64,000 nt of DNA from Tenacibaculum dicentrarchi. GTDB taxonomy: Bacteria; Bacteroidota; Bacteroidia; Flavobacteriales; Flavobacteriaceae. The stretch covers positions 124,001 to 188,000 of the forward strand of contig NZ_OESZ01000001.1 of NCBI RefSeq assembly GCF_900239345.1, read 5' to 3'. A program made the translations under genes and the position numbers. Below, one piece after another: positions 32,954-57,954 of the stretch. The notes under the pieces were generated by a model. The model was not told the origin of the DNA and searched no databases. It saw nothing but the letters and a program-made list of their open reading frames with translations. How positions within the stretch are numbered: the stretch's first letter is position 1; every line of letters starts with the position of its first letter.

Positions 32954-33056
32954 AATGCCTAGCCCCGATTGCAGCATTTGTTTGAGCTCTTTTTTGTTTT
33001 TCCTTTTAAAAAACAAAAAAAGCGAGTGCGTAAAGCGGGAAATTGCTTCAAAAAAA
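32954..33056 (+). repeat. Dispersed structured repeat family A, copy 2
   Basis: Begins AATGCCTAGCCCCGATTG, has the GAGCTC plus T-run and A-run plus GCGAGTGCG core, and ends AGCGGGAAATTGCTTCAAAA, almost as in the copy at 57854. It ends two bases from the stop codon of the alpha/beta hydrolase gene and faces it. Confidence 0.85.
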
Positions 33057-46602: not shown

Positions 46603-46608
46603 AATAAA

Positions 46609-46848
46609 AAATTGTATCGAGAACTTTTTTATCATCTAAATAAAGATAAAAGAATTGAAATTCTCGATACAATTTTAATTCCTTTTAGTCATTAAAATCA
46701 ATCAAATTGACAAGAGTTATCAAAAAAAAAGCTAAAAACTACGGCAAATCAGAATGTAAAAATTAAGCTAACTAAATTGAGTTTGACAGATTCGATTTCT
46801 TATTTTTTGTTACATTTTTTTTAAAATAAAATTTAAATAGACTCTTAA
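46609..46848 (-). repeat. MITE-like element family B, copy 1 (truncated)
   Basis: Matches the copies at 51041 and 56442 on the minus strand: a terminal TAAGAGTCTATTTAAATTTTA end, ATAAGAAATCGAATC, GACTAAAAGGAATTAAAATTG and the ATTGTATCGAGAA / TTCTCGATACAAT hairpin. The distal end with the second terminal repeat is missing on the side of the ferredoxin gene. Its intact end overlaps the stop codon of the histidine kinase gene. Confidence 0.85.
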
Positions 46849-48650
46849 TACAAAGGTATTTTTAAAGAAACTTTTGTGCCTTTTGCCTTACCATTTTCGT
46901 CTAGCAAATCAATATAAATTAACGAATAATCATTTTGAAATTGTGTGGAAAAGTTTTTCAATCGCTCTTTGGTTAAGTAAATTCCTATTGATTTTCTATT
47001 TAACGTTTTATTATTTTTAATTCTAAGCGCTTCTCTTCTACCAATACCATTATCTTCTATTTCAACTTTAATAAACTCTTCACCTATTTTAAAAATAGAT
47101 ATTTCTAATTTTTTACTTCCTTTTTTTGACGATAATCCATGCCAAATTGCATTTTCTAGAAAAGGTTGTAAGATTAATGGAGGAACTTTAATTCTATCTA
47201 AATTTACAGATTCGTTAATATTTTGAGTATATGTTATAGCATTTGAAAGTCTAATATTTTCAATACTCATATACAAATTCATTGTTTTGAGTTCTTCATT
47301 TAAAGTAACTTCTTTTATTATGGTCGACTCTAAAATGTTACGCATTAATTTTGAAAATTTATTCAAATAATACACCGCATTTTTTTGTTCGTTATTAATA
47401 ATATATAATTTAATCGAATTCAGGGCATTAAACACAAAGTGAGGATTCATTTGAATTCTTAACGTTTTTTGCTCTAACAGTAATATTTGTTTTTCATTTT
47501 TCAACAAACGCTGTCTGTATATTGAATATAATAAAAAGCCAAAAAAAGCAAGCAACATTAATACTATAATTAAAATATTTCTATTTCGAATGTGTTTTAT
47601 TTTAGCTATTTTATTTTCAATCGCTAATTTTTTTATTTTATTAGCACTTACTTCAACATCGTATTTATTAATAAGACTATTTACATACCGAATATTCTTA
47701 TCATTAAATGTTTTTTTTGCTATTTCTATTGATTTTTGATAATAATTTAGTGCTTGTTTATAATTTTCTGTTTGTTTATTTAATTCTGATAAATGCTCAT
47801 AACAACTTTCTAAAATTGATACGTTATTGTTTTTCAATCCTATTTCTAATGATTTATCTAAGTAATAATTAGCCTTTTTATATTTTTTTAATTTTAAAAA
47901 CACCCAACCTAAACTATTATATACTTTTGATAAAATATCACTATTAGCCAATTTTTCAGCAAGTGTTAAAGTTTCTATTAAACAAGTATGAGCTGCTTTA
48001 TATTTCCTTTTTAAAATTAAAACATTAGCTATACTATTATGACAAATTACTGTAATTAGCTTATCTTCATCCTCTGTATTATAGGCTAACGATTTTTTAA
48101 AATCAGCTAATGCTTTATCTAAATTTCCAATTTTTTGATATGTAACTCCTCGCTGTTGATAAGTGACTGCTAAACCACTAATATCTCCTATATTTTTTTG
48201 TATAGGAATCGATTGATTAAATAAATCTAAAGCTCTTTCATATTGTTTTAAAGATACATAAATGATAGCAATACTATTTATTGCAATACTAGTACTTCGT
48301 TTAACATCGCTGTTTTGATTTTTTGTGTTAGGTACAATATCTAACACTTGTTGATGATAATTTAAGGCTTCTCGAAGGTTATCTTGTTGGCTATAAAAAT
48401 TCCCTATCTGATTTAATATTTCAAGTCTTTTTGCATTATTTTTTGCTATTATAGCTTCTTTTAATGCTCTTTCAAGTCTTTCTATTTCTTCATATGTAAA
48501 TAGCTTATCTTTAAGGTATTTTTTAATTTTAAAAAAAGTGAGTTCTTTTTTATCTATAGTATTTGAAAGTATAGTGTCACTATTTTTTTCTGCGAAGCAA
48601 GTATATATTGTACACAGGAAAAAGAAAACTATAAAACCGATTATTTTCAT
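46845..48650 (-). CDS. TPR-containing sensor histidine kinase (LytS/YehU-like)
   Basis: A 601-residue kinase: signal peptide (1-20), about six to seven TPR units in the periplasm (70-340), one membrane helix (358-377), a short coiled coil, and a His_kinase domain with H404 in QMNPHFVFNALNSI, followed by an HATPase with PPLILQPFLENAIWHGL and GIGRREA. It pairs with the LytTR regulator encoded ten bases upstream. The stop codon TAA is part of the end of the adjacent repeat element, so the last residues may reflect an insertion at the gene end. Confidence 0.93.
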   Translation of the reverse strand: MKIIGFIVFFFLCTIYTCFAEKNSDTILSNTIDKKELTFFKIKKYLKDKLFTYEEIERLERALKEAIIAKNNAKRLEILNQIGNFYSQQDNLREALNYHQQVLDIVPNTKNQNSDVKRSTSIAINSIAIIYVSLKQYERALDLFNQSIPIQKNIGDISGLAVTYQQRGVTYQKIGNLDKALADFKKSLAYNTEDEDKLITVICHNSIANVLILKRKYKAAHTCLIETLTLAEKLANSDILSKVYNSLGWVFLKLKKYKKANYYLDKSLEIGLKNNNVSILESCYEHLSELNKQTENYKQALNYYQKSIEIAKKTFNDKNIRYVNSLINKYDVEVSANKIKKLAIENKIAKIKHIRNRNILIIVLMLLAFFGFLLYSIYRQRLLKNEKQILLLEQKTLRIQMNPHFVFNALNSIKLYIINNEQKNAVYYLNKFSKLMRNILESTIIKEVTLNEELKTMNLYMSIENIRLSNAITYTQNINESVNLDRIKVPPLILQPFLENAIWHGLSSKKGSKKLEISIFKIGEEFIKVEIEDNGIGRREALRIKNNKTLNRKSIGIYLTKERLKNFSTQFQNDYSLIYIDLLDENGKAKGTKVSLKIPLY

Positions 48651-48660
48651 AAAAGCAGTT

Positions 48661-49395
48661 CTAAAATTTTTCTAAAAAATCTGATTTCTTTTGACGAGAA
48701 ACAGGGATTCTATGGTTATCTTCTAAAATAACATATCCGTCCGATTTTATAAACTGTTTTAATTTATTTAAGTTGATAATAAATGAATTGTGAATTCTAA
48801 AAAAATGCTCTTCAGGAAGTAGTGCATTTATTTCTTTTAATTTTTTTGTTACTACAATTTTTCTATTATTAATAGTATGAATTGTGCAATAATTACCATC
48901 AGACTCTACAAACACAATTTCCGATTGTTTTAAAAAAATTAGTTTTCCATCGGTATTGATTGTAATTTTTCTTTTGTTGAACTTTTTATTAAAATTAGAA
49001 AGTATTTGTTCAATTTTTTCACTGCTATTACTTTTTTCATGGTAATTTTTAACCCTATTTAATGTTACCTCTAAATCATCAGAATCTATGGGTTTTAATA
49101 AATAATCAATTGCATCATTTTTTAAAGCCTTTATAGCATATTCACTATAAGCAGTTGTAATAACAATGGCAAAATCTTTTTTATCTAATTTTTCTAACAA
49201 TTGAAAACCGTCCATTGTTGGCATTTCAATATCTAAAAAAAGACAATCAATCGGATTATTGTTAATATATTTTATAGCTTGTTCTGCTTGAGTAAATGTT
49301 TGTATAATTTCTAAATCATCGTTAAAACTAGACAATTCCCACAAAAATCCTTCTATTGCCTTAGGCTCGTCATCAACAATTACAGCTCGTAACAT
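48661..49395 (-). CDS. LytTR family response regulator
   Basis: A 244-residue regulator: receiver domain (1-120) with acidic pocket D8-D9, phospho-acceptor D55 in LFLDIEMP, T81 and K101, and a C-terminal LytTR DNA-binding domain (about 140-244) with VESDGNYC, FFRIHNSFIINL and the RIPVSRQKK recognition segment. It should be phosphorylated by the TPR kinase downstream and bind paired direct repeats. A TATATTTG -7 box (49412-49419) lies just upstream with no clear TTG. Such repeats are found about 110 bases upstream, at 49507-49540. Confidence 0.94.
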   Translation of the reverse strand: MLRAVIVDDEPKAIEGFLWELSSFNDDLEIIQTFTQAEQAIKYINNNPIDCLFLDIEMPTMDGFQLLEKLDKKDFAIVITTAYSEYAIKALKNDAIDYLLKPIDSDDLEVTLNRVKNYHEKSNSSEKIEQILSNFNKKFNKRKITINTDGKLIFLKQSEIVFVESDGNYCTIHTINNRKIVVTKKLKEINALLPEEHFFRIHNSFIINLNKLKQFIKSDGYVILEDNHRIPVSRQKKSDFLEKF

Positions 49396-49506
49396 ACATC
49401 AAAATTTACCTCAAATATAATCGATATTAGGCTAAATAAAAACACAAAAAGCTGAAAAACACTATTTAAAAAAAGAGGTTGAGATAAAAATTAAAATAGA
49501 AACCAA

Positions 49507-49540
49507 TTATACATAAATTGATACCATTTATACATAAGTT
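49507..49540 (+). promoter_or_regulatory. Candidate LytTR regulator binding site (paired direct repeats)
   Basis: TTATACATAAATT (49507-49519) and TTATACATAAGTT (49528-49540) are direct repeats whose starts lie exactly 21 bp apart, two helical turns. LytTR regulators such as AgrA bind paired direct repeats with this phase. The site lies 112 bp from the LytTR gene and about 25 bp upstream of a plus-strand -7-like box. Confidence 0.45.
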
Positions 49541-49577
49541 CTTTTTTCTGATGTCTTTTTAAAAGATATTTGCGCCA

Positions 49578-49672
49578 CATATAATATACTTGAAAATCAA
49601 TTTTGATAAATTGGGGGATTAATCAAAAATGATAATAAATAAAAGCATCACTTTAGAGTGATGCTTTTTTAT
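49578..49672 (+). ncRNA. Candidate small RNA of about 95 nt
   Basis: A -7-like box GATATTTG (49565-49572, one mismatch) with a poor -33 region lies downstream of the paired repeats. The predicted RNA has a stem TTTTGAT/ATCAAAA closing a 14-base loop with GGGGG (about 49600-49627), then a strong terminator hairpin (49641-49670) with a T-run. No plus-strand gene lies upstream to need that terminator. The alternative is a second terminator for rpmA on the minus strand. Confidence 0.35.
49641..49672. terminator. Intrinsic terminator (plus strand; possibly bidirectional)
   Basis: AAAAGCATCACT, loop TTAG, AGTGATGCTTTT and a T-run. The plus strand has the longer T-run; the minus strand also has T-rich sequence (TTTTATTTATT). 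Confidence 0.8.
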
Positions 49673-49698
49673 GTAAAAAATTTTAAATTTAGCACATA

Positions 49699-49732
49699 AA
49701 AAAGCTCAAACAATAAATTGTTTGAGCTTTAA
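49699..49732 (-). terminator. Intrinsic terminator of rplU-rpmA
   Basis: AAAGCTCAAACAAT and its complement around a two-base centre, with a T-run on the minus strand, 20 bases after the rpmA stop. Confidence 0.8.
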
Positions 49733-49752: not shown

Positions 49753-50013
49753 TTAAGCCTCGAAAGGAACTATAGAAACGTATGATCTGTCATTTCTTTT
49801 CTTTCTAAAAGCAACAACACCATCAACTTTAGCGTGTAAAGTATGATCTTTCCCCATGTAAACATTTTTACCTGGATTGTGCGTTGTACCTCTTTGACGA
49901 ACAATAATATTACCTGCAATAGCAGCTTGTCCTCCAAAAATCTTTACTCCTAATCGTTTCGATTCTGATTCTCTACCATTCTTCGAACTACCGACACCTT
50001 TTTTATGAGCCAT
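49753..50013 (-). CDS. rpmA: 50S ribosomal protein L27
   Basis: An 86-residue ribosomal protein with the conserved N-terminus [18 protein letters not shown], which reaches the peptidyl-transferase centre, and [15 protein letters not shown] in the body. There is no Firmicute-type N-terminal cleavage extension. It follows rplU by 36 bases, the usual order. Confidence 0.97.
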
Positions 50014-50878: not shown

Positions 50879-50969
50879 TGGAGCTATTTCCCGCTTTCCG
50901 CACTCGCTCTTTTTTGAAAAAAAATCAAAAAAGGAGCTCAAACAATTGCTACAATCGGGGCTAAGCATC
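50879..50969 (-). repeat. Dispersed structured repeat family A, copy 3
   Basis: Reverse orientation. Read on the minus strand it runs TAGCCCCGATTG, TTTGAGCTCC plus T-run, A-run plus GAGCGAGTGCGGAAAGCGGG, nearly as in the copy at 57854. The 3' end is slightly different (AAATAGCTCC in place of AAATTGCTTC). Confidence 0.85.
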
Positions 50970-51040: not shown

Positions 51041-51333
51041 TAACCTGTTTAATTTCATCTGAAAAAAATTGTAACAGAATAATAAGAAATCGCATCGGTC
51101 AACCTGAATTCATTTCAGGTTCGCATCCTGATTTGCCGTAGTTCTCCCCCTTTTTTTTTGATGATTCTTGTCAATTCGAGTGATTTTAATGACTAGAAGG
51201 AATTAAAATTGTATCGAGAATTTGAATTCTTTTATGTTAATGAATTTCATGCTAAAAAAGTTCTCAATACAATTTTTTTGAAGGAAAAAAATCACTCGAA
51301 CTCACAGTTCATTTAATTTTTAAACAGACTCTA
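51041..51333 (+). repeat. MITE-like element family B, copy 2 (most complete)
   Basis: About 293 bp. The ends AACCTGTTTAATTT and AATTTTTAAACAGACTCT are inverted repeats of each other. Inside are two nested inverted repeats: TTCGAGTGATTTT (51175-51187) with AAAATCACTCGAA (51288-51300), and ATTGTATCGAGAA (51208-51220) with TTCTCAATACAAT (51261-51273). The right half could therefore fold into a hairpin of about 126 nt. No open frame of useful length is inside. Confidence 0.85.
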
Positions 51334-57853: not shown

Positions 57854-57954
57854 AATGCCTAGCCCCGATTGAAGCATTTGTTTGAGCTCCTTTTTTTGAT
57901 TTTTCTTCAAAAAAAGAGCGAGTGCGGAAAGCGGGAAATTGCTTCAAAAAAAAA
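57854..57954 (+). repeat. Dispersed structured repeat family A, copy 4
   Basis: About 100 bp: TAGCCCCGA, then TTGAAGCA (57869-57876) pairing with TGCTTCAA (57940-57947), enclosing an inner hairpin GCTCCTTTTTTTGA / TCAAAAAAAGAGC (57886-57919) and the conserved GAGTGCGGAAAGCGGG. It lies between ctaA and gldD and faces the gldD stop. Confidence 0.85.

Follow-up and report, generated by a model that had tools for sequence, protein, structure and literature searches.

A predicted LytTR-controlled small RNA with a G-rich hairpin loop in Tenacibaculum dicentrarchi and related flavobacteria

Which product, if any, is encoded between the LytTR response regulator gene and rpmA of Tenacibaculum dicentrarchi? 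Both genes lie on the minus strand, and no plus-strand ORF of at least 50 aa overlaps the gap between them. A first-pass annotation of the window, by which we mean the whole 64-kb stretch of DNA analysed, had proposed that a small RNA under LytTR control, transcribed divergently from the regulator gene, lies in this gap. To our knowledge, few trans-acting small RNAs of Bacteroidota have a known activator or target rule. In the open-licence literature we found no description of a LytTR-tied small RNA in Bacteroidota or flavobacteria, or of a small RNA like this one in Tenacibaculum.

The account that we propose is that of a LytTR-activated RNA gene whose G-loop silences mRNAs with C-runs in their leaders, and as a whole we hold it to be probable. 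Positions 49502-49670 would form a complete small-RNA gene (Table 1). The LytTR regulator, phosphorylated by the TPR kinase, would bind the two repeats, located between about -75 and -43, and would activate a promoter with a -7 box and without a -33 box. The RNA of about 94 nt would terminate at its own terminator and display GGGGG(AUU) in a hairpin loop, which would pair in trans with C-runs whose core is AAUCCCC and which lie a few bases ahead of start codons, and would thereby block translation. Its targets would be few, namely mRNAs that encode secreted or short proteins. We are highly confident that a LytTR-controlled non-coding RNA is encoded at this locus; pairing of the G-loop with C-runs as its mechanism appears to us about evenly balanced between right and wrong.

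Table 1. Features of the locus, with positions in the window
Feature	Position	Strand	Basis
LytTR-type repeat 1, ACCAATTATACA	49502..49513	+	Consensus of 60 distinct loci; pair in 74/80 orthologues
LytTR-type repeat 2, ACCATTTATACA, 21 bp from repeat 1, start to start	49523..49534	+	Consensus of 60 distinct loci; pair in 74/80 orthologues
-7 box GATATTTG, starting at exactly +30 bp from repeat 2, -33 region without TTG	49565..49572	+	nAnnTTTG at this offset in 60/80 best orthologues
Predicted small RNA, ~94 nt, inferred start	49577..49670	+	-7 box offset; covariance model R1
G-loop hairpin, GGGGG at 49613-49617	49596..49633	+	ViennaRNA fold; conserved G4+ loop in relatives
Intrinsic terminator, 12-bp stem (hairpin 49641-49668) and T-run to 49670	49641..49670	+	Sequence and fold
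LytTR response regulator, presumed activator	48661..49395	-	Pfam Response_reg 2.2e-22, LytTR 1.4e-20
TPR sensor histidine kinase, presumed partner	46845..48650	-	Pfam TPR_12 3.2e-33, His_kinase 5e-19
rpmA	49753-50013	-	ORF list
rpmA terminator, separate from the RNA unit	49698..49730	-	Inverted repeat then minus-strand T-run, by eye

Phased repeats and the promoter

Relatives of the locus were collected in one profile scan, which gave at least 485 relatives of the regulator, and the analysis was made on the best 80 named loci. The first-pass annotation had pointed to direct repeats, TTATACATAAATT starting at 49507 and TTATACATAAGTT at 49528, with 21 bp between the starts. This spacing was confirmed: when 400 nt upstream were scanned, a pair of half-sites ACCANNTAYACA with at most two mismatches and a spacing of exactly 21 was present in 74/80 best named orthologues, and in 78/80 if up to three mismatches were allowed. 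At 19 other spacings (13 to 32) the pair was seen in 0-1/80, and base-composition shuffles gave 0.0. The half-site pair comprises 18 constrained positions and its motif was derived from the same sequences, so that the comparison of spacings is the fairer control. While the pair stood, its register did not, since the conserved half-site ACCANNTAYACA lies 5 nt further left and the TAA(A/G)TT tail of the original motif was not kept. Compared by eye with the general LytTR consensus, [TA][AC][CA]GTTN[AG][TG], ACCATTTAT differs solely at the G position. LytTR sites are described as 9-bp repeats with a 12-bp spacer, which makes 21 bp from start to start (PMC2766830). The same arrangement of LytTR-regulated promoters, repeats of about 9 bp and a 12-bp spacer, was found here in the 74/80 best orthologues at spacing 21.

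The genome of the window contains one exact match to the repeat-pair pattern, at 49502/49523; 21 more sites with two or three mismatches to the pair are at control level (control 25). In 58 same-genus genomes the exact pair occurred 12 times and a control pattern once. Eleven of these 12 pairs adjoin a LytTR gene, and one (L041) adjoins a DUF4412-type gene elsewhere. As the exact pairs lie nearly all beside a LytTR gene, with one in the window genome, the regulator looks dedicated to the RNA output. From this linkage and from the conservation of the repeats we infer that they are bound by the adjacent LytTR regulator and that activation proceeds from them.

The promoter itself is phased to the repeats. 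The motif nAnnTTTG starts exactly 30 bp past the second half-site in 60/80 best orthologues, every other offset being used at most three times. No -33 TTG was present in the consensus over 60 loci, and the TTG frequency was at most 0.07 at each position from -42 to -15. The earlier reading of a -7-like box with a poor -33 was borne out by this combination of a box at +30 and no -33 TTG in 60/80 best orthologues. In F. psychrophilum, TAnnTTTG was mapped at -12 to -5 (PMC9723704), and on this basis the RNA start was placed at 49577. The fixed phasing of the -7 box to the repeats means that the plus-strand direction is set by the promoter and not by the position of the terminator alone. Spacing and promoter architecture are established by comparison among these loci, as are the RNA family, its G-loop and the sibling copies described below.

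The RNA, its classes and its distribution

The hairpin consists of a 7-bp stem TTTTGAT/ATCAAAA (49601-49607/49622-49628) carrying a 14-base loop AAATTGGGGGATTA (49608-49621), to which ViennaRNA added weak pairs AAUU/GAUU within the loop and AUCA/UGAU outside the stem. The 7-bp stem, the 14-base GGGGG loop and the terminator with a plus-strand T-run were all where the first-pass annotation had put them. Comparison shows the loop to be the conserved element. A G4+ run in a hairpin loop at most 150 nt downstream of the -7 position was found at 48/80 best named loci, against 0.85 in base shuffles and 2/80 in a control region; in 46 of the 48 it lay in the initial 80 nt, and the -7 box at +30 was present as well in 40 of the 46. 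Across relatives the G-loop sits on unrelated stem sequences. The stem sequence of the terminator varies among species as well, its hairpin and T-run persisting.

We sorted the RNAs into sequence classes A, B and C, names that are our own. Class A (Tenacibaculum) reads UUGAU AAAUUGGGGGAUUA AUCAA. Class B (Psychroserpens, Gelidibacter, Winogradskyella and others) has AGUGAUCGUGGGGAUUCACU or a diverged form of it, and a second element with GCUAUUA. Class C (G115, G090, G103) has AUAUUGGGGAUUAUUCG. What classes A, B and C have in common is GGGGAUU in the loop. Polaribacter types carry GGGGG on unrelated hairpins, one or two per RNA, with two G-loops in L012, L065 and L095. The RNA of the window is without the first G-run of its relatives (AAGGGG there, TTGAAA here). 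The motif GCTATTA is present at a distance of up to 120 nt in 35 of the full set of best 80 loci; it was used to choose the class B loci, so that its invariance in their alignment (A6) is by construction. That alignment holds 31 of 39 hand-listed loci, five without GCTATTA and three others being left out. The GCUAUUA block of class B RNAs (L062-L123) lies in the second hairpin and may be a separate pairing site. At L371/L099 a G6-loop hairpin with a terminator is present near the LytTR locus, about 120 nt farther from the repeats, perhaps belonging to another RNA class.

Covariation was of limited help. In the class A alignment (A4), 90.3% of cells were paired in the hairpin, and covariation was not above shuffles, with little variation among the sequences. 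For class B, 19 double-change cells were counted against a shuffled mean of 8.3 (reached by 0/500 shuffles) and the covariation score was marginally above shuffles (23/500), values to be read with the warning of the tool that relatedness alone can exceed shuffles. Neither the two-sided-change pairs of class B (5, shuffled 5.2) nor its further pair types (22, shuffled 26) rose above shuffles.

By prediction, the unit has what is expected of an sRNA: its own promoter, an intrinsic terminator, a size within 50-500 nt and no conserved reading frame. Rfam release 15 gave no family at gathering score for this RNA in the window and 15 of the 80 named loci, and in a lax search of the gap the best score was 23.1 bits against a cut-off of 50. 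Among these 15 loci the sole match was Flavo-1, elsewhere in L046, whose regulator is 96% identical to that of the window; by this comparison the window appears close to T. finnmarkense. Identity with Flavo-1 or another Rfam family was therefore rejected, there being no match at gathering score, and the family is one not named before in the open-licence literature and Rfam searched. Flavo-1 RNA (RF01705) itself is present in three copies in the 64-kb window, with 45-51 bits, at 32957-33046 (+), 50883-50966 (-) and 57857-57942 (+). Related repeats with AATTGTATCGAGAA arms, one copy inverted, and a common CTACGGCAAATCAG stretch were seen by eye at about 46605-46760 and at 51090-51300; they resemble a small dispersed element close to a Flavo-1 copy.

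A covariance model of class A (R1) recovered 32 places in 22/116 same-genus genomes, with four in G091 and five in G116; its strict filters may let weak copies escape. Of the 29/32 places with a core recognised by our script, the repeats are present in 28 (at most three mismatches) and the -7 box at +30 in 27. Two genomes contain unlinked sibling copies, seven in number and all away from the regulator. Repeats and -7 box are intact in four (L156, L162, L167, L174). In L173 the repeats are perfect and the box at +30 is absent, L422 has three repeat mismatches and no box, and L423 has four mismatches with the box present. That four of the unlinked copies keep the same promoter intact indicates that it is the RNA, rather than the regulator or rpmA, to which the repeats belong. 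Together with the phasing of repeats and -7 box, this strongly supports the proposed small RNA under LytTR control and divergent from its regulator. In L162 (G091) and L156 (G116) the unlinked copy lies directly downstream of a lipocalin-like gene that is itself a candidate target. The gene next to the L162/L156 RNA copy presumably resembles glyceraldehyde-3-phosphate dehydrogenase.

Retention of repeats and G-loop in relatives, on which the first-pass annotation had made its proposal depend, was seen in seven same-genus genomes with regulators 79-95% identical, and is not universal, the exceptions being T. skagerrakense-type, several Polaribacter and Kordia loci. The T. skagerrakense-type loci (L098, L103, L111) have repeats near the regulator start and no adjacent RNA. 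At several Polaribacter and Kordia loci the repeats precede a secreted-protein gene in place of the RNA. In L013 (2461-3714) the promoter drives a DUF4412 secreted protein (Pfam), L014-L017 being similar by eye, and in Kordia L097 the repeats precede an FGE-sulfatase-like secreted protein (PF03781, 2.6e-12). The predicted output of the regulator is swapped between RNA and secreted protein in some loci. For Kordia L097, L100, L102, L113 and L114, the gene behind the repeats encodes a protein with a secreted-like beginning. A LytTR-type promoter also stands before the DUF4412-type gene of L041 (G011), with no regulator within the 3-kb locus, and L352 has a DUF4412-type output as well.

C-run leaders and rival readings of the RNA

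The RNA had further been supposed to pair with C-rich mRNA targets. We searched three genomes for the loop complement TTAATCCCCCAA, and one match led to a lipocalin-like gene with the leader AACCCCTAAATCCCCCAAAAATG. Among 112 genomes searched for this gene, 26 loci were tried, of which 18 were strong (E <=4e-26), two weak and six without alignment. All 18 strong orthologues have CCCC at most 30 nt before the ATG, and 15/18 have two runs, while the surroundings of the C-runs in the leader diverge. The weak matches (L224, L230) have no C-runs. Genomes with a strong orthologue belong in 16/18 cases to the 22 R1-positive ones; no strong match was found in 6/22 R1-positive genomes, the window's own included.

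A pattern search for two C-runs before the ATG over 18 genomes gave a total count at control level. Ten of 20 hand-chosen matches fell in three unrelated recurrent gene families, namely a CAP-domain lipoprotein (four genomes), a 41-aa protein (four) and a 94-aa protein (two). For the 41-aa gene, 30 loci were examined out of 46 genomes matched: CCCC was present in the last 30 nt in 17/19 R1-positive and 8/11 R1-negative genomes, and two C-runs in 9/19 versus 0/11. For the 94-aa gene, where 28/29 loci were used and a broken copy (L335) was left out, CCCC was present in 8/8 closest homologues (two runs in seven) and in 10/20 more distant ones. The background for CCCC in the last 30 nt before an ATG was 2/356 genes of the named loci and 1/35 window genes, and for double C-runs 0/391 genes, starts being taken as the first ATG of the frame and some therefore misplaced. 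Because the families were picked for their C-runs, only orthologues found later by protein search count as independent. That C-runs precede the ATG of unrelated small genes suggests that the G-loop pairs with C-run leaders of mRNAs.

As a prediction open to failure, repeat-pair sites (at most two mismatches) were looked for in 16 genomes, of which 12 were R1-negative and had C3+ leaders. In G115, G090 and G103 this search retrieved an unlinked repeat pair, a promoter box and an RNA with UUGGGGAUUA, and in G072 a weaker RNA candidate. No G-loop RNA was found by it in G001, G005, G025, G105 and G124, all with C4+ leaders.

In the window's own genome the signal is mixed. Protein searches there gave no lipocalin, 41-aa or 94-aa gene. 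Near matches to the loop complement lay within leaders in 5/16 cases, as compared to 2/16 in G017 and 0/20 in G091, where 1.8% of the own-genome matches would be expected from area and about 4% from C5-block controls; at two mismatches, in a 464-kb sample of the own genome, 0/24 near matches lay in leaders. The five leaders belong to a TonB_C protein, a WG-repeat protein, an LpxD-like protein and the secreted L377 and L378, the latter two having no Pfam match within the first 70 residues. Duplex energy for the L378 leader was below that of all 387 background leaders, and the other four candidates were equalled by 12-21/387. In duplex energy, the leaders of the 41-aa and CAP genes of G017 ranked first, as did one leader of the own genome; the lipocalin leader did not, 7/130 background leaders being as low. 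We treat the own-genome candidates as leads only. Support for C-rich targets is independent yet incomplete: conserved C-run leaders in relatives speak for them, and this mixed signal, together with C-runs in genomes where no G-loop RNA was found, speaks against them. In L401 (G017), TTAATCCCCAAAAA stands immediately before a possible target gene, which we take to be GldL-like gliding motility.

Conservation of the loop might also be understood if the RNA were a decoy titrating a protein that recognises GGGGA(U) hairpin loops, like CsrB/RsmZ on CsrA. Such a role, which we consider improbable, would fit the retention of the loop on unrelated stems, at times with two G-loops per RNA (L012, L065, L095), as well as the several gene copies. 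It leaves, however, the conserved C-runs before start codons unexplained. CsrA (PF02599) was detected in 0/20 genomes, the own one included, with control genomes positive (3/14), and a CsrB/RsmZ-type decoy of CsrA, which requires CsrA/RsmA, was rejected on this count.

We see very little chance that the repeats serve only the minus-strand promoter of the regulator, the plus-strand hairpins terminating rpmA or convergent transcription. The repeats do lie in a divergent gap, and L098, L103 and L111 have them near the regulator start without an RNA; yet the -7 box on the plus strand is phased at a fixed 30 bp, repeats, promoter and G-loop RNA also occur at loci without the regulator, and rpmA has a separate hairpin (49698-49730). 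A second rpmA terminator, the alternative given by the first-pass annotation, fails because the G-loop RNA and its terminator are kept in L006, L007, L012 and L019, where no rpmA lies within about 1.5 kb, and because rpmA has a hairpin of its own. A conserved tiny peptide is harder still to credit, and we give it next to no weight. A frame TTG ATA AAT TGG GGG ATT AAT CAA TAA can be read by eye in the alignment of many class A copies, but a one-base deletion in L006, L007 and L058 and more changes in L061 break it with the hairpin retained, and classes B and C have only the loop in common.

Known systems and the wider proposal

The G-loop RNA, with its predicted LytTR control, has counterparts in other phyla. 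In the agr system of Staphylococcus aureus, the AgrA LytTR pair controls the divergent P3-RNAIII promoter, with paired repeats and a poor upstream promoter element. RNAIII is about 514 nt long, encodes delta-haemolysin and pairs through C-rich loops with G-rich Shine-Dalgarno sites near start codons. The likeness lies in a LytTR pair with a divergent regulatory RNA and a loop directed against the translation start, the pairing here being predicted. The present RNA differs in that it is non-coding and only 94 nt long, that its G-loop would face C-runs, that it belongs to Bacteroidota and that it has unlinked siblings in some genomes. In FasBCA-FasX of Streptococcus pyogenes, as here, a small RNA gene adjoins a LytTR-type system; compared by description, FasBCA-FasX differs in phylum and in target chemistry. 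In vibrios, LuxO-Qrr comprises several near-identical unlinked small RNAs under one response regulator, a sigma-54 activator, and is Hfq-dependent. It shares the unlinked sibling copies, whereas the RNA described here has LytTR-type repeats and a housekeeping-like -7 box.

Closer in phylogeny is Rfp18 of Flavobacterium psychrophilum, described as a trans-acting small RNA that has a stem-loop as predicted pairing region and affects secreted proteases (PMC9723704). By description the two are alike as flavobacterial small RNAs with a stem-loop as pairing region; the main text on Rfp18 contains 0 occurrences of 'LytTR' (PMC9723704). Flavo-1 RNA (Rfam RF01705) is likewise a small structured flavobacterial RNA, but has no match to the G-loop RNA.

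We tentatively extend the proposal to the family, with somewhat less than even confidence. Within Flavobacteriaceae, regulator and kinase would make up a dedicated two-component system, and its conserved output would be sibling G-loop RNAs silencing mRNAs with one or two C-runs immediately ahead of the start codon. The code, a GGGGAUU loop against an AAUCCCC leader, would persist through the turnover of RNA stems, of gene positions and of target sets, and direct protein output would have taken its place in some lineages. If true, the GGGGAUU/AAUCCCC code would suit bacteria in which translation does not depend on Shine-Dalgarno pairing.

If the proposed account of a LytTR-activated, C-run-silencing RNA is right, a regulator would be known together with its promoter code, its RNA family and a simple mark by which targets are predicted, and the system would be a case of translation block at start codons without Shine-Dalgarno pairing. 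It would also provide a handle on the control of secreted proteins in marine, fish-associated Tenacibaculum.
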